Position numbers and translations under genes: made by a program | The notes under the pieces: generated by a model | Seen by the model: the letters and a program-made list of their open reading frames with translations, nothing else | Told to the model about the DNA's origin: nothing | Database searches by the model: none | Shown: one piece after another, positions 10,630 to 20,591 of the stretch | How the letters are laid out: the number at the start of each line of letters is the position of its first letter | Position numbering within the stretch: position 1 is the first letter of the stretch | Assembly (NCBI RefSeq): GCF_028368975.1 | Contig: NZ_JAQNDM010000002.1 | Span: 9,666,425-9,730,424 of the forward strand | DNA from: Stigmatella ashevillena | GTDB lineage: Bacteria; Myxococcota; Myxococcia; Myxococcales; Myxococcaceae | Reading direction: 5' to 3' | Length of the DNA: 64,000 bases

Positions 10630-12252
10630 CTACCGCGAGCGGCGGCGGCGCCAGAGTCCCACGAGCGCCCAGGCGCCCACGGGCAACAGGGCCCCCATGG
10701 GGACCGTGGTGCATCCGCCTCCCGGTGCATCGGCATCGTCGTCTCCTCCCGGAGACGTTCCTGGCACTCCCGTGGAGGGCCCGGTCGTGGGCGGCTGGGG
10801 GATGCCAGGAGACGGAATGCTCGTTCCCTGGGGCGCGACGGTCACCTGGGCCGTGGCCGTCTGTTGGACCGTGCCCGAGGTGGCCGTGGCCGTCACCGTG
10901 TACTGCCCTTCCTTCTGGAAGACGTGGGACAGCTCGGGGCCCTCGCTGGTCTCCCCATCTCCAAAGTCCCAGCTCACCGTGGCGTCCGTCAGCGAAGATT
11001 CCGCGCGGAAGAAGGCCTGGTGGGGGGCGACGCCTCGCTCGCCTTCGACAATCAGGTTCAGCGGGTTGGGGGAGGGCTTCTCCTCGGGGGCGAGCTGCTT
11101 GGTCAGGGTCAATGTGTCCGCGGTGGTGCCCGAGGGCGTCACGAGCCGGGCGGTGAGGGTCCCGCCGGTGACCTCGACATCCAGGAAGCCATAGTCCTTG
11201 TTGTTCCGGACGGCGCTCCACGAGGGCTTCGAGACGGGAAACTCCCGCAGGTTGGCGCCGCCGCTGCCTACCACCAGGTAGGGGATCCCCGTGCCGGTGG
11301 CGGCCACCGCGTCGCCCTTCATCGCGTAGGCGCGCTCATAGTGGTGGTCATGTCCGGTGAGGACGAGGTCCACCCCATACTTCTCGAAGAGGGGACTGAA
11401 CTCCCGGCGCATGAGGAGCTGGGAGCCGTGATCTCCGCTCGACCAGGGCGGGTGGTGGAAGAAGGCGATCTTCCACGGCGCCTTGCTGGCCGCGAGATCC
11501 TGCTCCAACCAGGCCTTCTGCGCCGCCAGGGTGCAGCGGTCCTTCGAGGCCAGCCCAATGGCGCAGTTCGAGTCCAGCCCCACGAAGTGCACATGTCCCC
11601 AGTCGAAGGAGTAGTAGCGCTCGCCGCCACTGGGGCTGGTGGGCAGGTAGAGGTTGTCCAGGTAGGGCTGGGCTTGATCCGTGACGTACTCGTGGTTGCC
11701 CGCCACGGCGAAGAACGGCACCTCCATGAGCAGGTCCTTCATGGGGACGAACATGTTGTTCTGGATCTGCTCTTCGGTGCCGGCCTCGTAGGCGACATCC
11801 CCCATGCCGATGAAGAGCTCCGGCCGGTAGGAGAGCATGCTGGCGGCCACTTCCTTCTGGCGGGAGCCGCCCGTGCCGAAGTCGCCCATGGCGGCGAAGT
11901 GCACCCGGCGCGTGCCCGGAACAGGCGCGGTGCGGAAGCGCTTGGGGCTCGTGCTCGCGCCACACGTCTCCACCACATAGGTGTATTCAGCCCCCGGCGT
12001 CAGGCCATTGAGGACCACGGCATGGATGCGTCCGCTGTCCGCCGAGCGGACCGTCTGGTTCGTGGAGCCTCCGGTGCCGTAACGCACCTCGGGGGTGCAG
12101 TTGGCATTCACACGGAATGCGACGGTGGCTGTGTCGGGCCCCACCCGTTGCAGGTAGGGGGAGCGGGTGAGCGTTGCCGCGTGAGCCACTCCGGTGGTCA
12201 TCACGAGAGCGGCAGCCAGGGCGCCGAGCGCAGGGACCTTCGCTAAATGCAT
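10630..12252 (-). CDS. MYXO-CTERM purple-acid-phosphatase-like metallophosphoesterase with PKD domain
   Basis: A signal peptide (cleavage near AHA-AT, residue 25) precedes a fibronectin-like N-domain and a calcineurin-type phosphoesterase. The metal ligands are visible as GDFG (D124), GDVAYEAG (D152, Y155), GNHE (N186, H187), FFHHPP (H266) and GHDHHYE (H301, H303), the purple acid phosphatase set. A PKD domain with VSWDFGDGETSEG follows at about 395-470. The last 30 residues hold a Cys at 514, a helix at about 518-533 and the end RRRRSR. That is a MYXO-CTERM tail, known to be processed by a CPBP-type myxosortase for display on the cell surface. GGAGG lies five bases before the ATG. It probably releases phosphate from esters outside the cell. 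Confidence 0.93.
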   Translation of the reverse strand: MHLAKVPALGALAAALVMTTGVAHAATLTRSPYLQRVGPDTATVAFRVNANCTPEVRYGTGGSTNQTVRSADSGRIHAVVLNGLTPGAEYTYVVETCGASTSPKRFRTAPVPGTRRVHFAAMGDFGTGGSRQKEVAASMLSYRPELFIGMGDVAYEAGTEEQIQNNMFVPMKDLLMEVPFFAVAGNHEYVTDQAQPYLDNLYLPTSPSGGERYYSFDWGHVHFVGLDSNCAIGLASKDRCTLAAQKAWLEQDLAASKAPWKIAFFHHPPWSSGDHGSQLLMRREFSPLFEKYGVDLVLTGHDHHYERAYAMKGDAVAATGTGIPYLVVGSGGANLREFPVSKPSWSAVRNNKDYGFLDVEVTGGTLTARLVTPSGTTADTLTLTKQLAPEEKPSPNPLNLIVEGERGVAPHQAFFRAESSLTDATVSWDFGDGETSEGPELSHVFQKEGQYTVTATATSGTVQQTATAQVTVAPQGTSIPSPGIPQPPTTGPSTGVPGTSPGGDDDADAPGGGCTTVPMGALLPVGAWALVGLWRRRRSR

Positions 12253-12383: not shown

Positions 12384-13115
12384 CTACTTCTGGATGGTGT
12401 AGGAGGAGAGCTCTTCGAGCCGCTCGCCGTCCTCCTTCACCTTCCCGACGCCCGGCACGAGCCAGTAGATGCGCTCTTTGCCATCCTTGTCGGGGCGATC
12501 CCTCAGGACCTTGAGGGCATTGGTGAAGGTTCCGGCCGGCACGGTGACGGTCTCGTTCACGGCCACCACGCGCCACGTGTACGTGCGCTCCTTCTCCTCC
12601 TGGGAACCATCATCCAGGCGGGTCAGCTCGCGGATGGTGGAGGCGGTGCTCCAGTTCAGCGCTTGGGGCCGGGCCAGGGACTTCACGGTGGCCGGAGACC
12701 AGGTCGTCACCCGGGCGAGGGCCCCGCCCTTGCGGTCCTCCTCGCGGAGGCGAACCACCATGCCGTTGTCGAGCTCCACTTGCCAGGACAGCTCTTCCAG
12801 GTGCGGCTGGGTGCTCCGCATCGCGGTGGCCTTCGTGGCCGTCTCCGGCACGTTCTCGAGCCCTAGCACCTCCACCGTCTTGTCGAAGGTCCCGCGCACG
12901 GGATCCGTGATGCGGTAGGTCCACGAGGAGCCCGTCGTGAGGGGCCAGAGGCTCTGGCGGACGTTCGGCTCTTCCGGGCTCGGATTCACGGGGTCGCCCG
13001 GAAGGACTCCAGGGCCGCCCGGGGGATCATTCGCGCCGATCGGGAGACTGCCGCTGCCGCCACACCCCACCAACCATGCTCCGGCCACCAGGGCCGCCAC
13101 CACACTCCGCTTCAT
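12384..13115 (-). CDS. lipoprotein of unknown function, last gene of the VTC/DUF4956 operon
   Basis: I do not recognise a named family in this 243-residue protein. Its signal ends AWLVGC, a lipobox, followed by a Gly/Pro/Asn-rich linker of about 35 residues. A mature beta-rich domain then begins at WPLTTGSSWTYRI and includes TVTVPAGTFTNALKV and RIYWLVPGVGKVK. The pattern of an aromatic 'Y.WRV' strand and 'VPAGTF.NA.KV' recurs in small secreted myxobacterial lipoproteins. The ATG (GGGAGGAGCAGGT upstream) overlaps the stop of the DUF4956 gene by four bases (ATGA), so translation is probably coupled. Context suggests an envelope partner of the polymer-synthesis proteins. Confidence 0.85.
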   Translation of the reverse strand: MKRSVVAALVAGAWLVGCGGSGSLPIGANDPPGGPGVLPGDPVNPSPEEPNVRQSLWPLTTGSSWTYRITDPVRGTFDKTVEVLGLENVPETATKATAMRSTQPHLEELSWQVELDNGMVVRLREEDRKGGALARVTTWSPATVKSLARPQALNWSTASTIRELTRLDDGSQEEKERTYTWRVVAVNETVTVPAGTFTNALKVLRDRPDKDGKERIYWLVPGVGKVKEDGERLEELSSYTIQK

Positions 13116-13813
13116 ACCTGCTCCTCCCGTACCCCTTTGGGGTTCATCGATGCCCATCGCAGTCCCCGAAGGGCTGCTCCTTGCGTCAGGCTCAGCGCCG
13201 CGACGAGGGTTCCTGGCTCCTTCTCCTCGACTTCCATCTCCAACCGGCGCCCGTCGAAATCGAGCGCGCAGGACTTCACCATCACGTTCCGCTCACCGAG
13301 GACCTTGCGCAGCGAGGCTTCCGCGGTGACGAGATCATCCGACTGCGCCGAGAGCATCACCCGCTGTTTCGGCGCCTTGTCCTCCTTGGTGAGCAGGTCC
13401 AGCACCATCAGCAGCCCGGCGACGAACAGGGTGCCCATGCCCGCCAACCCCAGGCTGCCGTGCCCGCAGGCCATGCCCAGGCCAATCATCAGAAAGAGGA
13501 TGGCCGCGTCGCGCGGATCCTTGAGGCCCGAGCGGAAGCGCACGAAGCCACCCAGCCCCACCAGCCCGAAGGCCTTGGCCACGCTGTCTCCGATGACGGC
13601 GGTGATGACCGCCGCGGCGGTGCACAGCAGCACCTGCGCCTGGACCATGTCTGCCTTGGGCAGCGCGCGTCCCATCATGAGGCGCCAGGGCCGCAGGGAC
13701 AGGAGCGCACCGATGAGCACCGCGGCCGTCATCCGGGGGATGATCGAGGCCATGGGAATCGAGGACAGCTCCTTTCCCAGATCGCTGAAGACTGCGGAGA
13801 AGGTGGGTTCCAT
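13112..13813 (-). CDS. DUF4956 domain membrane protein
   Basis: This is a 233-residue inner-membrane protein with four hydrophobic segments within residues 20-140 and a soluble C-terminal domain (about 150-233). The core GGFVRFRSGLKDPRDAAILF is the DUF4956 signature (RFR...DPRD). From general knowledge, DUF4956 genes often sit beside VTC-domain genes, as here, but the biochemical role is unknown. A channel or assembly role for a polymer made by the VTC protein is inference. GAGGAG stands upstream of the ATG. It lies nine bases after the kinase-repeat gene and overlaps the lipoprotein gene. Confidence 0.9.
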   Translation of the reverse strand: MEPTFSAVFSDLGKELSSIPMASIIPRMTAAVLIGALLSLRPWRLMMGRALPKADMVQAQVLLCTAAAVITAVIGDSVAKAFGLVGLGGFVRFRSGLKDPRDAAILFLMIGLGMACGHGSLGLAGMGTLFVAGLLMVLDLLTKEDKAPKQRVMLSAQSDDLVTAEASLRKVLGERNVMVKSCALDFDGRRLEMEVEEKEPGTLVAALSLTQGAALRGLRWASMNPKGVREEQV

Positions 13814-13822
13814 GGTGTCTCC

Positions 13823-15517
13823 TCAGAGGCTGGCGCGGGCTTCGGAGACGGTAGACGGACGCACCACGCGATCCAGGGCCGTTTCGTGGGCGGTGGCGAT
13901 GACACAGTAGGCGTTGCGCAGCAGCGGGAGGCGTTCCGGGAAGGTGCTCAGCACGCGGTGGATGAGCGTCTCCGCGCGGTCCGTGAGGGGCAGTCCCCGG
14001 AGCGAGGAGAGGACGGTGGCGGGCCAGCGGTCCGCGAAGTCCTCGCGCAGGCGCCAGGCCCGGTAGTCATCCATGCCGTCAATCGAGTCGATGGCCTCCT
14101 TGGTGAGCGCGGCCCCCTGCTCGCGCAGGGCGAAGGCCTCGGCGGTGGCGAGCCCCGTCAGTGAGCGGAGCACCAGCTTCAGCGCCTTGCCCGCGAGCTG
14201 CTCGCGCAGGCCGCTGGCGAACGGGGAGTCCAGGCCGGTGACACTGCGCAGCACCGCGAGCCGATCGTGCGAGACGAGCGATTCACGCAGCGCATCCACG
14301 CGCTCCCCCTTCAACCCGGTGAGGCTGCGCGCCACCTCCGAGTACAGCTTTTTCTGGATGCCCAATTCGCGCACGGACCAGGCCGCCTCGTTCTCCACCC
14401 CGGCCAGGCCCAGGAGCACCTGGGGCAGGTGCCGGTCGTGCAGCGCGCGCTCCCGCAGGTTCCACGCCTCTTGTGAGTCGTTGCCCTTGAGCCCCATCAC
14501 CACTTCCCCGGGGGTGAGCGGATAGAGCTGCGAGCGCAGCGCCATGGCGCGGGGGGACTGGAGGCCATTGAGGCTGGCGGCGACATCCACCGGGACCACC
14601 TTCGACAGCAGCTCGCGCAGCGACCAGGACGCCTCATCCTCCAGGCCCACAAGGCTGCGCACCGACAGGCCGGGGAAGCGCTCCACGGAGGCGAGCCGCC
14701 GCTGGTGGGGCGCCAGGCCGGGCACGCCGCCCAGCAGCCACACCGCCAGGGCCGGCTCGCGCACCTCCAGCGCGTCCAGCGCCTGGAAGAAGCGCTCCTC
14801 CACGTGCGCCACCGTCACCGGCTCCGGGGCCGCTTCGGCCGAGGGGCTGATGCGCTGGATCTGGGGCTCCCGCCGCTCCAGCCTTGCCAGCACCGCGTCG
14901 ACGATGCGCTGCTCCAGCGCCCACAGGGGCTGGTCGTTGTTCTCGATGACGATCCAGCGCGCCGGATCCTTGCGCGCCATCTCCAGAAAGGATTCCCTCA
15001 CGCGCACGGAGAGCCCCGCGCCCGCCAGCCCCTTGCGGCTGTCGCCGTCCGTGCTGCGGCCTTCCTTGACCTTGCCCAGCCGCTTGCGCAGCCGTGCCAG
15101 GTCCGGCTCCACGTCCACCAGGATGACCAGGTCCGGCCAGATGCCCTTCGAGGCCAGCTCGCACGCGGGCGCCAGCTCCTCGTGGGACAGGCCCCGCCCG
15201 CCGCCGCTCAGGGCCAGTTGCGAATAGAGGTAGCGATCGCTGATGCACACCTCGCCTCGGCACAGCGCGGGGGCGATGACTTCCTCGAGCTGCTGCGCGT
15301 CGCGCGCCAGGTTGAGGAAGAACTCGGTGCGCGCGCCCATTTCCAGCAGCTTCGAGTCCCGCGTCAGATCCCGGACGCGCCGCGCGATGGGAGACTGCAA
15401 CTCGCCCCCCTCTCGGGCGTGAGCCACCTTGTAGCCCTGGCGCCGCAACCGCGCGGCCAGGAGGTTGGAGAGTGTCGTCTTGCCGCTGCCGTCGATGCCT
15501 TCGAAGTCGATAAACAC
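13823..15517 (-). CDS. thymidylate-kinase-like P-loop protein fused to a 27-residue repeat domain
   Basis: Residues 1-215 form a thymidylate kinase fold: Walker A FEGIDGSGKTTL (6-16), the DRYLYSQLALSG motif (94-105) and a basic LID-like stretch near 140-165. Dedicated dTMP kinases are about 210 residues and would end here. This protein continues for 350 more residues, of which 288-523 are nine repeats of consensus SLxGLxSxxAxxLRE with a period of 26-28. A degenerate tenth repeat lies around residue 264. The start is GTG, with AGGG five bases upstream, six bases after the VTC gene. The operon position suggests a role with the VTC protein, not housekeeping dTTP synthesis, but the kinase substrate is unknown. 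Confidence 0.88.
   Translation of the reverse strand: MFIDFEGIDGSGKTTLSNLLAARLRRQGYKVAHAREGGELQSPIARRVRDLTRDSKLLEMGARTEFFLNLARDAQQLEEVIAPALCRGEVCISDRYLYSQLALSGGGRGLSHEELAPACELASKGIWPDLVILVDVEPDLARLRKRLGKVKEGRSTDGDSRKGLAGAGLSVRVRESFLEMARKDPARWIVIENNDQPLWALEQRIVDAVLARLERREPQIQRISPSAEAAPEPVTVAHVEERFFQALDALEVREPALAVWLLGGVPGLAPHQRRLASVERFPGLSVRSLVGLEDEASWSLRELLSKVVPVDVAASLNGLQSPRAMALRSQLYPLTPGEVVMGLKGNDSQEAWNLRERALHDRHLPQVLLGLAGVENEAAWSVRELGIQKKLYSEVARSLTGLKGERVDALRESLVSHDRLAVLRSVTGLDSPFASGLREQLAGKALKLVLRSLTGLATAEAFALREQGAALTKEAIDSIDGMDDYRAWRLREDFADRWPATVLSSLRGLPLTDRAETLIHRVLSTFPERLPLLRNAYCVIATAHETALDRVVRPSTVSEARASL
13949..14728 (-). repeat. nine or ten in-frame 81-base coding repeats (27 residues each)
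   Basis: The conserved glycines of the motif fall at residues 291, 318, 345, 373, 401, 428, 455, 481 and 508 of the kinase-repeat protein, a spacing of 26-28. Each unit reads about SLxG[LVM]xxxxAxx[LV]RE, predicting a small two-helix unit and a solenoid overall. The repeats are conserved as protein and diverged as DNA, so they are old. Confidence 0.8.
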
Positions 15518-15523
15518 GGTGCC

Positions 15524-16240
15524 CTAACCCCCAAGAACCCCATCCGCGGCGAAGGTGTGAATCCTCGCCATCCCCTCGGCGAACTTGCTGTACGCCGGCT
15601 TCCTGCCTCCCGGGTGCAGCGCCGCCAGCCACTCTGGCAACTCCTGTCCCAGGTGCTTCACCTCCACCACCACACGGCTGTCCAGGAAGAGCGGCGGTCC
15701 CAGCCGCTCGCTGGTCAGCGCCCTCTCCGACAGCGCCAGCCCCGGGGGGATGGCGTGGTAGCCAATCTCCCGGTCCACCGTTACCCGCCAGGTGTGCGAG
15801 GCCTGGTACACGTGGCGCTGGTACGTCACCCCCAGCACGGGAATCAGTCCGCCGCCGGCAATCAAGGGCAGCAGGCCCGCGCCCCCGCGCAGGACGCTCT
15901 TCAGCCGCCCGCGCGGCACCCACACCCGGCGCTTCTGCGTCACCCCGTTGCGCTCGCGCTTCGCCTCGAGCACCACGCGCTCCACGCCCTCGGCGCCCAG
16001 GTCCGGCGAGTACTCCTTGGTGCGGACCTTCATGCAATCGTGCGGGGTGCTCATGGCGCGTTGGGCCAGCGGGTACCCCGGCTTGTCGAAGTAGACGGAC
16101 ACGATGCGCGTGGGGGGAGGCAGGTAGCCGTCCAGCTCCAGGCAGAGCCGCGAGCTGAGCATGGCGGCGGCACGCGCATCCAGCACCAGCTTGAACTCGC
16201 GGCGCAGCTTGGTGACTTCACCTTCGGCGAACGAGAGCAT
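15524..16240 (-). CDS. VTC domain protein (polyphosphate polymerase-like, triphosphate-tunnel fold)
   Basis: This is a 238-residue stand-alone VTC domain, the catalytic fold of the yeast Vtc4 polyphosphate polymerase, which polymerises the gamma-phosphate of ATP. The charged tunnel residues are in order: RREFK (13-17), TRIVSVYFD (44-52), MKVRTKEY (70-77), LEAKRE (91-96), YQRHVY (140-145), WRVTVDREI (151-159), VVEVKH (191-196) and YSKF (217-220). All alternating basic and acidic positions expected of an active enzyme appear present. The protein lacks the SPX and membrane parts of yeast VTC proteins. It starts 17 bases after the porin gene stop and ends six bases before the kinase-repeat gene. 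Confidence 0.92.
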   Translation of the reverse strand: MLSFAEGEVTKLRREFKLVLDARAAAMLSSRLCLELDGYLPPPTRIVSVYFDKPGYPLAQRAMSTPHDCMKVRTKEYSPDLGAEGVERVVLEAKRERNGVTQKRRVWVPRGRLKSVLRGGAGLLPLIAGGGLIPVLGVTYQRHVYQASHTWRVTVDREIGYHAIPPGLALSERALTSERLGPPLFLDSRVVVEVKHLGQELPEWLAALHPGGRKPAYSKFAEGMARIHTFAADGVLGG

Positions 16241-16256
16241 GATCGTATCCCCGTTC

Positions 16257-17429
16257 CTAGAAGCGGGTGGCCAGCTGGAAGGACAATTCAGTAGCGGGCA
16301 CCTCGTCGCCTGGACGAAGGCCGCGCTCGGCCTGCAGCTGTGCCTTGAAGAAATCCGAGAAGAGGATGTTGATGCCCCCCACGGTTGTCCAGCCGCGTCC
16401 TGTCACATCTCCCCGGAGCTGAAGCGCTTCCACGCCGGCGACAGGCTGAAGTGCCCACTCTTGGGAGATCGGCAGCTCGTAGCTGAGCAGTCCGAGCTGT
16501 GCGGTGAAGGGGCCCAGGGCGAGCTGTCCCCGGACGAACTCACCCGAGACGTGCAGCGCTCCCAGCTTGATGAGGGCATCGGCCGCCACCGCGTGGCGGG
16601 GGACGCCCTCCAGCACCTGCACCATGTAGCTGCTGACCCCCACGGTGAGCGCCTTGAAGGGGCGCACGCTCACGCGCGCGGCCGCGTCCTCGCTGGTGCG
16701 CTTGCCCAGCTCGTCCTCGGAGCCCTCGAAGAGGCCGCCGGAGACCTTCAGGTTCCACGCCCCCTTGAGCCGGACCTCGCCCATCAACCCCAGGCGCCGC
16801 CCGCCCAACTGATGCGTCTCCGTCAGGTAGTCCTCGACGAGGCCCCGGCTGACCAGCGGCAGATCCCAGCTCGACTCAAGGGTGCGCTCCAGGAAGGGGG
16901 CCTTGAACTGGCCGGCATAGAGCCGGAGGCTCTTCTTCTCGTTCGCGAGCCGGACAAAGGCGTCCTTCAGGATGTTCTTCGAGGACAGATCCCCCGTCAC
17001 TTCCGCCTCGAGGTGCTTGAAGGAGGCGCCCACGCCCACCCGCGCGGAGGGAATCGACAGCGTCCGGGCATAGTCCGTGCGCTCATCGGCCCGGGCCCGG
17101 GCGAAGACGCGGCCGAACACGCGCACCTCGCGCTGGGTGGCCCGCTCCTCGGTCGCGCTCAGGCTCTCGCCCAGCGGTTCGACCTTGGGCTTGGGTGTGG
17201 GCTCTTCCGGCGCGGCGGCCGGGCTCGCGGTGCTTGCAGGCCGCGTCACCGTGCCAGGGTTCACCGGCAGCGCCTCGGCGATGAGGGTGGGCTCGGCAGG
17301 GGAGGGGGAGGCTTCCGCGGAGGACTCCTCCGGGGAGGCCGTCTCTTGCGCCCACGCGGGCGCGCTCACCAGGAGCGCGGTGAGAAGGCTCCGCCACGCC
17401 GATTCCACCCCTCCACGCCACCCGCCCAT
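16257..17429 (-). CDS. outer-membrane porin, OprO/OprP (phosphate-selective porin)-like
   Basis: The 390-residue protein has a signal peptide (cleavage near AWAQE, residue 28), then a Pro/Ala/Glu-rich stretch (about 30-90). A beta-barrel follows, ending in a C-terminal phenylalanine (QLATRF) as outer-membrane porins do. The segment LRLYAGQFKAPFLERTLES is typical of the OprO/OprP family (GQFKxPFxxE), whose founding members take up phosphate or pyrophosphate. The ATG at 17429 has GGGAGG nine bases upstream. It is the first gene of the operon with the VTC, kinase-repeat, DUF4956 and lipoprotein genes. Anion selectivity is inferred from family and context only. Confidence 0.78.
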   Translation of the reverse strand: MGGWRGGVESAWRSLLTALLVSAPAWAQETASPEESSAEASPSPAEPTLIAEALPVNPGTVTRPASTASPAAAPEEPTPKPKVEPLGESLSATEERATQREVRVFGRVFARARADERTDYARTLSIPSARVGVGASFKHLEAEVTGDLSSKNILKDAFVRLANEKKSLRLYAGQFKAPFLERTLESSWDLPLVSRGLVEDYLTETHQLGGRRLGLMGEVRLKGAWNLKVSGGLFEGSEDELGKRTSEDAAARVSVRPFKALTVGVSSYMVQVLEGVPRHAVAADALIKLGALHVSGEFVRGQLALGPFTAQLGLLSYELPISQEWALQPVAGVEALQLRGDVTGRGWTTVGGINILFSDFFKAQLQAERGLRPGDEVPATELSFQLATRF

Positions 17430-17529
17430 GTGTCCCGCCTCCCGATCGCTGCCGGCGAGCTTCCGTTGCAACACGGGTGCCCGGGATGGGCTCTGTCGAG
17501 AAGCAGACGGGAGCGCGGCGATCAGCGTG

Positions 17530-17610: not shown

Positions 17611-18249
17611 TTACAGGCGCGACGGTTCATCCTGCTTCGGGGCAGAAGAAATTTCGGTCTCGGCGGCAGGCGGCTCTGTGGGTTTTTCCTTCTGGAGCAT
17701 GCGGACGCCCATGACCATCGCGATGATCCCGCCCAGACCCAACAGGCCCCAAAGGATGAAGGAGGGCATGGCATGAGCGCCCACCTCGAACTCCGCGTGG
17801 AGCACCTTGAGCCGGGTCGTCCGGAAGCTCACGTCGAGCTGGTGGAGGGCGGCGCGCTCCGGCACGAACTCCGCGTGCCAGTTGACGGCGCCCTTCTGGA
17901 CGGTCTGGACCTGGCCGTGGGTCGAGCCTCTCTCCCGGAGCGACAGGGTGATGGGGCCCTCGAAGGGGGTGCCCTGGAAGCTGCCGACATGAAGGGTGAC
18001 CTTGAGGGGCTCCCCGGCACGGGGGGCCATGGGCTGGAGGGCGCCTTGCAGCCGCTCCTCCGTGTCGGACCAGGCCAGCTCCAGCACGCCGCCGCGCCGG
18101 TCCACGGCGATCCGGTCGGGCGCGTCCGCGGCCGCGGCCAGGGTGGCGGCCAGCAGGCAGGCTTTCGAGAACCACCGCCCGGACGTGGTAAGACGGTTTT
18201 GCCTCCTCCCGCCCTGTCGTCTAAGATGCCCTGTCTCCACACCACCCAC
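17611..18249 (-). CDS. membrane-anchored protein with Ig-like/YtkA-like extracytoplasmic domain
   Basis: Function is unknown. A signal-like hydrophobic stretch (KACLLAATLAAAADA) is followed by a beta-sandwich domain (PRAGEPLKVTLHVGSF, GPITLSLRERG, VNWHAEFVPERAALHQLDVSF) resembling YtkA-like domains. One membrane helix (SFILWGLLGLGGIIAMVMG) and a short basic-acidic cytoplasmic tail complete it. No ATG is available. GTG at 18249 or 18240 is used, preceded by a GGAAG-like sequence, and the start is uncertain. It is divergent from the Ser/Thr kinase gene, only 32 bases away. It precedes the porin/VTC operon on the same strand after a hairpin region. Confidence 0.65.
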   Translation of the reverse strand: MGGVETGHLRRQGGRRQNRLTTSGRWFSKACLLAATLAAAADAPDRIAVDRRGGVLELAWSDTEERLQGALQPMAPRAGEPLKVTLHVGSFQGTPFEGPITLSLRERGSTHGQVQTVQKGAVNWHAEFVPERAALHQLDVSFRTTRLKVLHAEFEVGAHAMPSFILWGLLGLGGIIAMVMGVRMLQKEKPTEPPAAETEISSAPKQDEPSRL

Positions 18250-18281: not shown

Positions 18282-20591
18282 ATGAATCCTCAGCCTTTCG
18301 GGAAATACCAGCTTCTGAAGAAGCTCGCCACGGGCGGCATGGCCGAGGTCTGGCTTGCGCGCCAGACGGGGATTGAGGGCTTCGCCAAGAACCTGGTCGT
18401 CAAGCGGATCCTCCCGCACCTGGCGGAGGACCATGAGTTCGTGGAGATGTTCCGGAACGAGGCGCTGATCGCCGCGCGCTTCACGCACCCGAACATCGCT
18501 CAGGTCTACGAGTTCGGCGAGGCCAACGGCACCTATTACATCGCCATGGAGTTTGTCCACGGCGAGGACTTGGGCCGGGTGATGCGCAAGGCCTACGGCA
18601 AGGACCAGTGGATTGCCCGCCCCCTGGCCATCCGCATCGTCGCCGCGGCGTGCGAGGGCCTGTACTACGCGCACACCCGGACGGATGACGCGGGCCGCCC
18701 CCTCAAGGTGGTGCACCGGGACATCTCGCCGCAGAACATCCTCATCAGCTTCGACGGCTCGGTGAAGCTGGTGGACTTCGGCATCGCCAAGGCCGCCGAC
18801 CAGGTGGGGCTCACGAAGTCCGGGGCCATCAAGGGCAAGTTTGCCTACATGGCGCCCGAGCAGGCCTCGGGCAAGGCGCTGGATCACCGCGCGGACATCT
18901 TCGCCATCGGGCTGGTGCTGTACGAGCTGCTCACCTGCAACCGCCCGCTCAAGCGGGAGACGGAGCTGGCCACGCTCCAGGCCGCGCTGGAGTGCAGCAT
19001 CGCGCCGCCCTCCGAGGTGGCCGATGTGCCCCCGGGCCTGGACGAGGTGGTGATGCGGGCGCTGGCGAAGGCGGCGGATGACCGCTACCGCGATGCGCGC
19101 CAGTTCCAGCTCGCCCTCGAAGAGGCCCTCGTCCGGGAGCAGGCGGTGGCCAGCTCGGTGCAGATCTCCGAGTTGATGGAGGCGCTCTTCGCGGATCGGC
19201 TCCAGGAGGAGAAGAAGACAGGCAATCCCGAGCCGAACGCCGAGGAGCCCAGCAGCTCGGCCAACGCGAGGCCCCCCGCGCCCCCACCCGAGGAGCCCGC
19301 TCCCGCGCGAGCAGGGCGTGCGGCGCCCGCCGTGGCGAACATGAGCTGGGAAGCCCCCCCGGGGGAGAGCTCCCAGCGCCACGATCGGCCGCGGACCTCC
19401 ACGGGCATCCGTCCCGCCACGCGCACCTCACAGCCTCCTTCGCTGCACGAGGAGATGAACGAGTACCTGGCGCCCCAGGGAGGCACCCAGGTGGAGCCCC
19501 GGCGTTCGGGGGAGACGCCGCGCCGGGCCACCAGCGCGGGCCAGACGGCCGTCGCGCGGGCTCCCTCCCGCCCGGAGGTGAAAACGTCCGGCGACGACAC
19601 GCTGCCCGTCCGGCGTACCTCCTCCCGGCAGGTGCCGCTGGAGACGGAGCGGCCCGCTCCCCGGCCCTCTCGTCCGGCCCTTGTCCAGGAGGTCCGTGCG
19701 CGGCAGCAGGAGGAGGAAGAGCCGTTCGAGGACTCCGAGCGCACCCAGTTCCCGGAGCCGGAGCCGGAGCCGGAGCCGCCGCCCCCGCCCGCGCCGCGGC
19801 GCAGGACCACCGGCCACATCAGTCAGGTGCGTCCGTCGGGCGAGACGTCCCAACCCCCGCGCCGGCGCACGAGCACCTCCGCGAAGAGCCTGGTGGTCAA
19901 GGAGCCACCCCCCCGCAAGCCCGTGGTGGTGGACGATGACGAGCCGTCGCCGCCCCCCGCGCCGGTCTCGGCGGTGCGGAAGATCAGTGCCCTGAGGAAC
20001 TCGGTCGATCTGCTCAAGAAGATCTTGGTGGGCGGGGCCGCGGTGGCGGTGGCGGTCGCCATCTTCGCCTTCCGCGACAAGCTCAACATCAAGGGGATCG
20101 ACGGGCAGCGAATCCTCGTGTCCGTGGACACCTCTCCCAGGACTTTCGTGACGGTGCGGCACAGCGACCGGTGTGGAAGCGCCGAGCCGACCACCCCGCT
20201 GGGGGAGACGCCGCTCAAGGGCGTGGAGGGGGCGCACATCCAGGACACGCTGGTCATGGAGAACGTGCAGCAGGGCATCTACGCCGAGGAGGAGCTGCCC
20301 TACGGAGAGCCTGGCGAGACGAAGGTCATCAAGCGGGAGTTCCAGATGGGCTCCGTCCAGCTCAAGGTCACCCCCAAGAACCCAGGGAAAATCACCGTCC
20401 GGGAGCGGGGCCAGGACATCCACGTCTTCACGCCGGGCATGTCGTTCGATCTGATGGAGGGCCCCCACACGCTGGAGCTTCACGGCGAGAAGCTCGAGGA
20501 GCCACTGACGGTGGAGGTTCAGGTCAAGCGCAGGGACACCACCAACGTGTCCGTGGACCTGAACAGCAAGACCGCGCGGGTCTCGCCCTAG
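18282..20591 (+). CDS. Ser/Thr protein kinase with transmembrane helix and PEGA-like sensor tail
   Basis: The 769-residue protein starts with a Hanks-type kinase domain (residues 1-285): [18 protein letters not shown] (Gly loop), the ATP-binding lysine in [16 protein letters not shown] (catalytic loop, about 145), DFGIAKAAD and YMAPEQAS. The key catalytic residues are intact. A disordered Pro/Glu/Arg-rich linker of about 280 residues includes a PEPEPEPEP run. A membrane helix ([14 protein letters not shown], about 580-598) is followed by an extracytoplasmic domain of about 165 residues with PEGA-like strands ([15 protein letters not shown]-like). The start is divergent from the YtkA-like gene. 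Its stop TAG overlaps the opposing rhodanese stop within CTAG. Confidence 0.93.

Follow-up and report, generated by a model that had tools for sequence, protein, structure and literature searches.

What would a myxobacterium do with a predicted polyphosphate polymerase encoded in near-contact with a kinase-like repeat protein, a membrane protein and two proteins of the outer envelope? This question is raised by a locus in Stigmatella ashevillena. The locus lies in a stretch of 64,000 nt (GCF_028368975.1, NZ_JAQNDM010000002.1:9,666,425-9,730,424), which is called the window throughout, and its positions are given as window positions. The five-gene set, termed cluster A, comprises open reading frames for a porin-like protein, a VTC-domain protein, a protein combining a thymidylate kinase (TMPK) fold with short repeats (TMPK-repeat protein), a DUF4956 protein and a lipoprotein. 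All five are on the minus strand, separated by gaps of 16, 6 and 9 bases and finally joined by a 4-base overlap, and reading of the open reading frames confirmed this layout as given in an initial annotation of the locus. Cluster A is real, conserved and duplicated, and it is a variant of a known, little characterised bacterial VTC-DUF4956 module. As regards its function, the chances appear about evenly balanced that it is an envelope polyphosphate device, in which the chain would be made inside the cell and passed into the envelope.

The proximity of the five genes is more than chance, since related genomes repeat the gene order, the shared strand and the near-contact, and a paralogous set is present in the same genome. 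In a survey of 145 genomes of the order, genes for the TMPK-repeat protein and for VTC were each detected in 75 genomes, and genes for DUF4956 and for CotH kinases each in 84. TMPK-repeat genes were divided by score into A-type (at least 240 bits) and B-type (at most 170 bits); the gene of genome G139 was counted among the 23 weaker matches and belongs with neither type (G, C and L numbers are our handles for genomes, contigs and loci). For the position counts 98 of 104 VTC rows were taken, six second fragments of split matches being dropped. A DUF4956 gene lies within 6 kb of all 74 A-type genes and a VTC gene within 6 kb of 69 of them; for the weaker matches the corresponding numbers are 22 and 20 of 23, and for all TMPK-repeat genes of the order 96 and 89 of 97. 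The five A-type genes without a VTC row include that of G060, at the very end of a contig, and that of G121, where VTC is found on another contig. In G014 a diverged VTC was recovered by direct comparison (L055), and the remaining two, in G013 and G107, are at loci that were not read.

Twenty A-type loci, two of them cut by contig ends, were read gene by gene. Porin, VTC and DUF4956 genes are present in all of them and the lipoprotein gene in 17. Among 14 B-type loci, CotH and porin were each found in 13, VTC in 12 and DUF4956 in 14. The co-occurrence of VTC, DUF4956, porin and TMPK-repeat genes, for which the initial annotation had proposed a neighbourhood survey, thus extends across related genomes. 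The possibility it had raised that the genes might be adjacent in this genome only is rejected because the set is conserved. All five genomes of family f3 with an A-type gene lack a second copy, and in each of them a CotH gene is found at most 6 kb from the A-type gene. The B set is split in two genomes: in G083 CotH-TMPK-DUF4956 (L061) stands apart from VTC-porin (L077), and in G108 porin-TMPK-DUF4956 (L063) stands apart from CotH-VTC (L179).

The paralogous set of S. ashevillena, cluster B (L003), is located about 3.1 Mb from cluster A on the same contig. Its genes follow the order CotH, VTC, porin, TMPK-repeat, DUF4956 on one strand, with overlapping or near-touching ends at the chosen starts; the CotH match reaches 199.8 bits. 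Since the aligned TMPK-repeat proteins of A and B share 40% identity and the VTC proteins 21%, the duplication looks old. None of the flanking genes of cluster A scanned with Pfam is a CotH gene, and none of the five listed among the seven CotH places of the genome is near. One of these seven places is in cluster B. When eight genomes were compared by eye, one CotH gene was noticed at a distance of some 180-360 kb from the A-type cluster, and this may point to a distant partner that is conserved. The genome additionally carries two PPK1-family genes (G000:C1:169836 and G000:C2:3621596). Consequently, VTC is not the sole likely route to polyphosphate in this organism, and a special role for it is plausible.

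The VTC protein of the window exceeds the Pfam cut-off of its family (scores are given in the table). A profile built from 26 of 36 collected VTC proteins and searched against PDB sequences retrieved yeast Vtc4 (3g3q) with an E-value of 6.8e-15 and nine further VTC-subunit sequences, so that all ten PDB sequences matched at E < 1e-5 are VTC subunits; the sole other match had an E-value of 1.2. A phmmer search with a single VTC sequence had given matches to ribosomal protein L8 at an E-value of 0.24 or worse, which were set aside in favour of the profile search. On the profile alignment, with positions counted by hand, Vtc4 residues K200, R266, E279, K281, K294 and R296 align with K17, R73, E92, K94, K103 and R105 of the window protein, and R361, R373, E426, K428 and K458 with R142, R152, E193, K195 and K219. 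The matched tunnel residues are important in Vtc4. In the window protein E15, R73, E92, K94, R105, R142, R152, E193, K195 and K219 are invariant among the 26 aligned sequences and K103 is nearly so; K17 is replaced by Arg in cluster B. At the position of Vtc4 Arg264 the window protein has Lys71, and the cluster B protein has Arg. Excerpts of PMC8749416 describe Arg264 and Arg266 of Vtc4 as essential together. The identity proposed initially is borne out, and assignment as a VTC-family protein with the tunnel residues of Vtc4 is supported by these alignments. The protein is a predicted ATP-dependent polyphosphate polymerase.

The TMPK-repeat protein also exceeds the cut-off of its family, Thymidylate_kin, and yet it is probably not a TMP kinase, judging from its residues. 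We compared 30 of 35 TMPK-repeat proteins with 48 of 72 canonical Tmk loci (L088-L159), the 48 having been taken by no selection rule and not including the tmk of S. ashevillena itself (L006). The ATP site is kept: Lys13 of the Walker A motif is present in 30 of 30 TMPK-repeat domains and the lid residue Arg161 in 29, and Asp9, Glu65, Asp94-Arg95 and Arg144 likewise occur in all 30. The positions that we take to act at the nucleobase, in recognition of deoxythymidine monophosphate (dTMP), behave differently. Arg73 and Gln104 are found in 48 of 48 canonical enzymes and in none of the 30 TMPK-repeat domains, all of which have Asp or Glu in place of Arg73. Tyr103 (47/48 canonical) is Leu in 28 of the 30, and Pro37 (48/48) is Gly in 22 and Asp in 5. 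Phe/Tyr69 (47/48) is Asn in 18, Tyr being retained in 11. In addition, a canonical-looking tmk with a stronger Thymidylate_kin match (145 bits) is located on another contig of the genome. An ordinary dTMP kinase was rejected on both grounds, and nucleotide recycling by the P-loop protein, one of the roles suggested initially, is unsupported because the residues of the dTMP site are lost and the stronger tmk lies elsewhere. Compared with Tmk, the protein retains P-loop, Asp9, Asp94-Arg95, Arg144 and lid Arg161; it differs by the absence of canonical Arg73, Tyr103, Gln104 and Pro37 and by fusion to repeats of 27 residues. This period was obtained by autocorrelation with z = 6.0 in the window protein and z = 9.5 in the cluster B paralogue, and the repeats have the form SLxGLxxxxAWxLRE. 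The repeat region (residues ~285-545) gave zero Pfam matches at E-values up to 1.

The other members of cluster A look envelope-linked from predicted features, namely the signal peptide of the porin and the lipobox of the small protein, both recognised by eye, and the hydrophobic segments of the DUF4956 protein. The envelope link drawn initially is thus sustained as a predicted location. The DUF4956 protein exceeds its Pfam cut-off; its hydropathy profile has five hydrophobic windows, two of them overlapping, corresponding to about four segments. It also has a weak second match to MgtC, of 17.2 bits in the window (below the cut-off) and 24.8 bits in cluster B. The porin of the window reaches 14 bits against Porin_O_P (PF07396), below the cut-off of 20.9, and a profile of 15 porins matched zero porins in the PDB set. 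The cluster B porin, which is homologous to it (32% over 223 residues, E = 1e-13), exceeds the cut-off with 37.1 bits. The initial label of a phosphate-type porin is therefore not established for the window gene alone, its score being below the cut-off and weak by itself. The lipoprotein scores 18.2 bits against DUF3108_like, below the cut-off of 27. A metallophosphatase gene follows the lipoprotein gene after 131 bases on the same strand; its product ends in a MYXO-CTERM sequence (TIGR03382, 18.8 bits, cut-off 15.85). Of the 20 A-type loci, 13 have this gene downstream, likewise on the strand of the cluster, and 2 carry it beyond the porin gene; cluster A may extend one gene beyond the five to include it.

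Outside the order, the association of VTC with DUF4956 persists where the TMPK-repeat gene is missing. In a sample of the phylum Myxococcota, VTC is present in 92 of 179 genomes. Our count covers 22 VTC loci that lack the TMPK-repeat gene, from 20 genomes of Myxococcota; it omits the edge fragments G146, G181:C100 and G133:C130 and four further VTC places belonging to the order, namely two apparent pieces of split B sets (G108:C49, with CotH adjoining, L179; G083:C8, with porin adjoining, L077), G082:C4 (L078) and G121:C1010. In 21 of the 22 a DUF4956 gene is no more than 4 kb away, that of G051 being below the Pfam cut-off, which agrees with the initial statement that the two families are frequent neighbours in bacteria. 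CotH is found within 2.5 kb in 13 loci (two assignments, G147:C377 and G175:C26, are at or just below the Pfam cut-off), and a PPDK_N protein adjoins in three others (one of them, in G050, L178, by a home-made profile), giving 16 of 22. In L172 a PPDK match with 36.7 bits, encoded on the opposite strand, was not counted. Three of the other six loci are on cut contigs (G147:C350, G152, G155), and three (G175:C1, G178, G131) have neither CotH nor PPDK_N as far as read. Because these genomes carry 1 to 8 CotH places each, a chance CotH match this close (2.5 kb) to any one gene has, by rough estimate, a probability of about 1% or below at each locus. Where their starts are clear, the CotH and PPDK_N proteins open, by eye, with either a lipoprotein-like signal or a hydrophobic N-terminal segment, and these phosphotransferases are apparently extracytoplasmic.

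Further neighbours of VTC-DUF4956 are HlyD (L074, L167, L172, L178), outer-membrane proteins of the OEP/TolC type (L074, L167), Porin_O_P (L170), Alginate_exp on the other strand (L162) and a Na/Pi cotransporter with PhoU (L160). In distant Myxococcota genomes, proteins of about 940 residues that combine CotH with a right-handed beta-helix and begin with a hydrophobic segment are encoded upstream of VTC-DUF4956 (L162:4786-7605, L169:8377-11202, L168:3521-6331). PPDK_N proteins adjoin VTC-DUF4956 or TMPK-repeat genes at L074:7820-9850, L076:4533-7145, L178:8035-10095 and L085:4357-6312; the L074 and L085 proteins start like lipoproteins, which is an unexpected location for this domain. Full-length relatives of the TMPK-repeat protein from named records were found in three metagenome-assembled genomes. 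In a Planctomycetota genome (L082) VTC adjoins the gene; in a Kofleriaceae genome (L085) a PPDK_N lipoprotein and the TMPK-repeat protein are followed by porin and lipoprotein, detected by home-made profiles; in a Myxococcales genome (L086) the order is VTC, Na/Pi cotransporter, TMPK-repeat.

The closest described arrangement is that of the Gram-positive pel clusters. According to the excerpts of PMC7112168, genes for CotH, poly-phosphate polymerase, DUF4956 and DUF4832 are contiguous with them, and contiguity of the CotH-VTC-DUF4956 trio with pelDEADAFG, which is thus already known, appears in the passages of PMC7112168 and PMC12345266. The streptococcal accessory genes SIR_1592-1594 of these two accounts share clustered VTC and DUF4956 with cluster A and, in cluster B, CotH as well. 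Cluster A differs from what those passages describe in that it has no adjacent CotH, adds the TMPK-repeat protein, porin, lipoprotein and phosphatase, belongs to a Gram-negative envelope and lacks a pel gene within the four flanking genes covered by the scan. Cluster B and several loci of Myxococcota look like exceptions to the published linkage with pel, as far as their flanking genes were scanned for it. The excerpt of PMC2879425 on the NELoc-2 region of Clostridium perfringens, also Gram-positive, likewise places VTC with CotH and a HEAT-repeat gene nearby, and it names no TMPK fusion. The catalytic tunnel domain is shared with the eukaryotic VTC complex, as indicated by the profile match to Vtc4. 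The architecture of Vtc4 includes an SPX and a transmembrane part, whereas the window protein consists of the tunnel domain alone (238 residues) and DUF4956 would be its membrane partner. Literature searches pairing DUF4956 with VTC, or 'bacterial VTC' with polyphosphate, found nothing. New in the present analysis are the TMPK-repeat protein and the porin as well as the duplication and the survey of VTC loci in Myxococcota. The initial annotation overlooked the published trio, cluster B with its CotH gene, and the phosphatase gene.

From the gene content, conservation and the domain and residue patterns we infer the following functional steps. In yeast, according to the parts of PMC10657179 consulted, polyphosphate is made on the cytosolic side and is hypothesised to move through a membrane part of the VTC complex that resembles a channel. 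By homology and tunnel residues, the cytoplasmic VTC protein of cluster A would polymerise phosphate from ATP as Vtc4 does. DUF4956, its frequent neighbour, may serve as an inner-membrane scaffold or conduit that carries the chain across in place of the yeast membrane part. The TMPK-repeat protein would most likely act on a phosphate-type acceptor (a primer, pyrophosphate or the chain end) or gate the polymerase, with the 27-residue repeats as a putative docking surface. Porin, lipoprotein and secreted phosphatase, from their predicted locations, could handle the product or released phosphate in the periplasm and outer membrane; in cluster B a neighbouring CotH kinase may be the user of the product.

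Several observations weigh against such a device. The residue at the position of Vtc4 Arg264, which is reported as essential together with Arg266, is Lys in the window protein, and the weak MgtC match of DUF4956 could mean a regulator rather than a conduit. The window porin is below the Porin_O_P cut-off, and the 15-porin profile matches no porin of the PDB set. The TMPK-repeat gene of G139 has neither VTC nor DUF4956 within 6 kb, and a third VTC gene, G082:C4 (L078), has no DUF4956 listed nearby. A home-made profile finds no DUF4956 in L082, L085 and L086, and no VTC was found in L085. Finally, as far as the excerpts of PMC12345266 go, deletion of the streptococcal VTC homologue SIR_1593 did not reduce aggregation, unlike deletion of SIR_1592 and SIR_1594.

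Phosphate uptake and storage is the foremost alternative, although we regard it as unlikely: the porin would import phosphate or pyrophosphate, the phosphatase would free phosphate outside, and VTC would store it as polyphosphate. The secreted phosphatase of purple-acid type within the cluster, the Na/Pi cotransporter genes that adjoin VTC in L160 and L086 and the Porin_O_P score of the cluster B porin are in line with it. No phosphate transporter, however, is present among the scanned genes of clusters A and B, PPK1-family genes already occur twice, and the CotH and PPDK_N neighbours are left unexplained. The import direction assumed initially is not favoured, since the VTC-DUF4956 neighbours elsewhere include HlyD and TolC-type proteins, yet also Na/Pi cotransporters.

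For an exported product, a use is suggested because extracytoplasmic-looking phosphotransferases recur beside VTC-DUF4956. Little or no ATP is expected outside the cytoplasm. We advance very tentatively, and as rather improbable, that VTC and DUF4956 constitute a bacterial polyphosphate synthase-exporter whose product would serve as phosphoryl donor for extracytoplasmic kinases (CotH proteins with a signal peptide or membrane anchor, PPDK_N lipoproteins); in myxobacteria the TMPK-fold repeat protein would have been taken on for priming or gating, and the chain exported by the A-type cluster of the window would be used elsewhere, given the seven CotH places of the genome, or cut by the secreted phosphatase. 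A shade more doubtful is an accessory module of biofilm or exopolymer formation that modifies or regulates an envelope polymer, with polyphosphate or phosphorylation as its means. The contiguity of the trio with pelDEADAFG in the passages of PMC7112168 and PMC12345266 argues for it; a weak argument against it is that no pel and no glycosyltransferase gene occurs among the four genes flanking clusters A and B that the Pfam scan covered. Least probable is another tunnel-fold enzyme (a tripolyphosphatase, or one making a different phosphorylated product) with DUF4956 regulating phosphate or ATP status in the manner of MgtC: tunnel residues common to other TTM enzymes, Lys at the Arg264 position and the MgtC matches in both clusters speak for it, and the family match to VTC, with VTC subunits as the ten PDB sequences found, against it.

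Features of cluster A and adjoining genes (window positions)
Feature	Position	Strand	Basis and remarks
Porin-like protein, outer-membrane, 390 aa	16257-17429	(-)	Signal peptide; ATG start, GTG at 17474 possible alternative
VTC-domain protein, 238 aa, predicted ATP-dependent polyphosphate polymerase	15524-16240	(-)	PF09359, 56.8 bits (cut-off 23)
TMPK-repeat protein, 564 aa	13823-15517	(-)	GTG start; TMPK-fold P-loop domain ~aa 1-207 plus repeats; PF02223, 90.6 bits (cut-off 27)
Repeat region of TMPK-repeat protein, ~aa 285-545	13883-14665	(-)	Autocorrelation, period 27 aa
DUF4956 protein, 233 aa	13112-13813	(-)	PF16316, 42.6 bits (cut-off 30.6); about four hydrophobic segments; basic motif GLGGFVRFRSGLKDPRD (alignment)
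Lipoprotein, 243 aa, weakly DUF3108-like	12384-13115	(-)	Lipobox LVGC; homologue in 17/20 A-type loci
Secreted metallophosphatase, probable sixth gene	10630-12252	(-)	Pur_ac_phosph_N, Metallophos, PKD, MYXO-CTERM
Conserved upstream gene, 200 aa, membership uncertain (181-base gap)	17611-18213	(-)	One transmembrane segment; homologue in 14/20 A-type loci

Divergent from the conserved upstream gene is a serine/threonine-kinase-like gene (18282-20591, plus strand), called by sequence and homology; a homologue stands beside the A-type cluster in 14 of the 20 loci read. Promoter and terminator scans found 0 and 2 candidates, compared with shuffle means of 0.3 and 2.7, and thus nothing above chance.

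Literature searches showed no answer to the question of where extracytoplasmic kinases obtain their phosphoryl donor, nor to that of what VTC proteins do in bacterial cells that already have PPK1, and a search on extracytoplasmic phosphoryl donors gave nothing relevant among the titles listed. The neighbourhood pattern described here makes both questions testable, through polyphosphate synthesis by VTC, passage by DUF4956 and acceptance by CotH and PPDK_N proteins. The TMPK-repeat protein, if the proposed role is true, would illustrate how a nucleotide-kinase fold can be taken over for a new acceptor.

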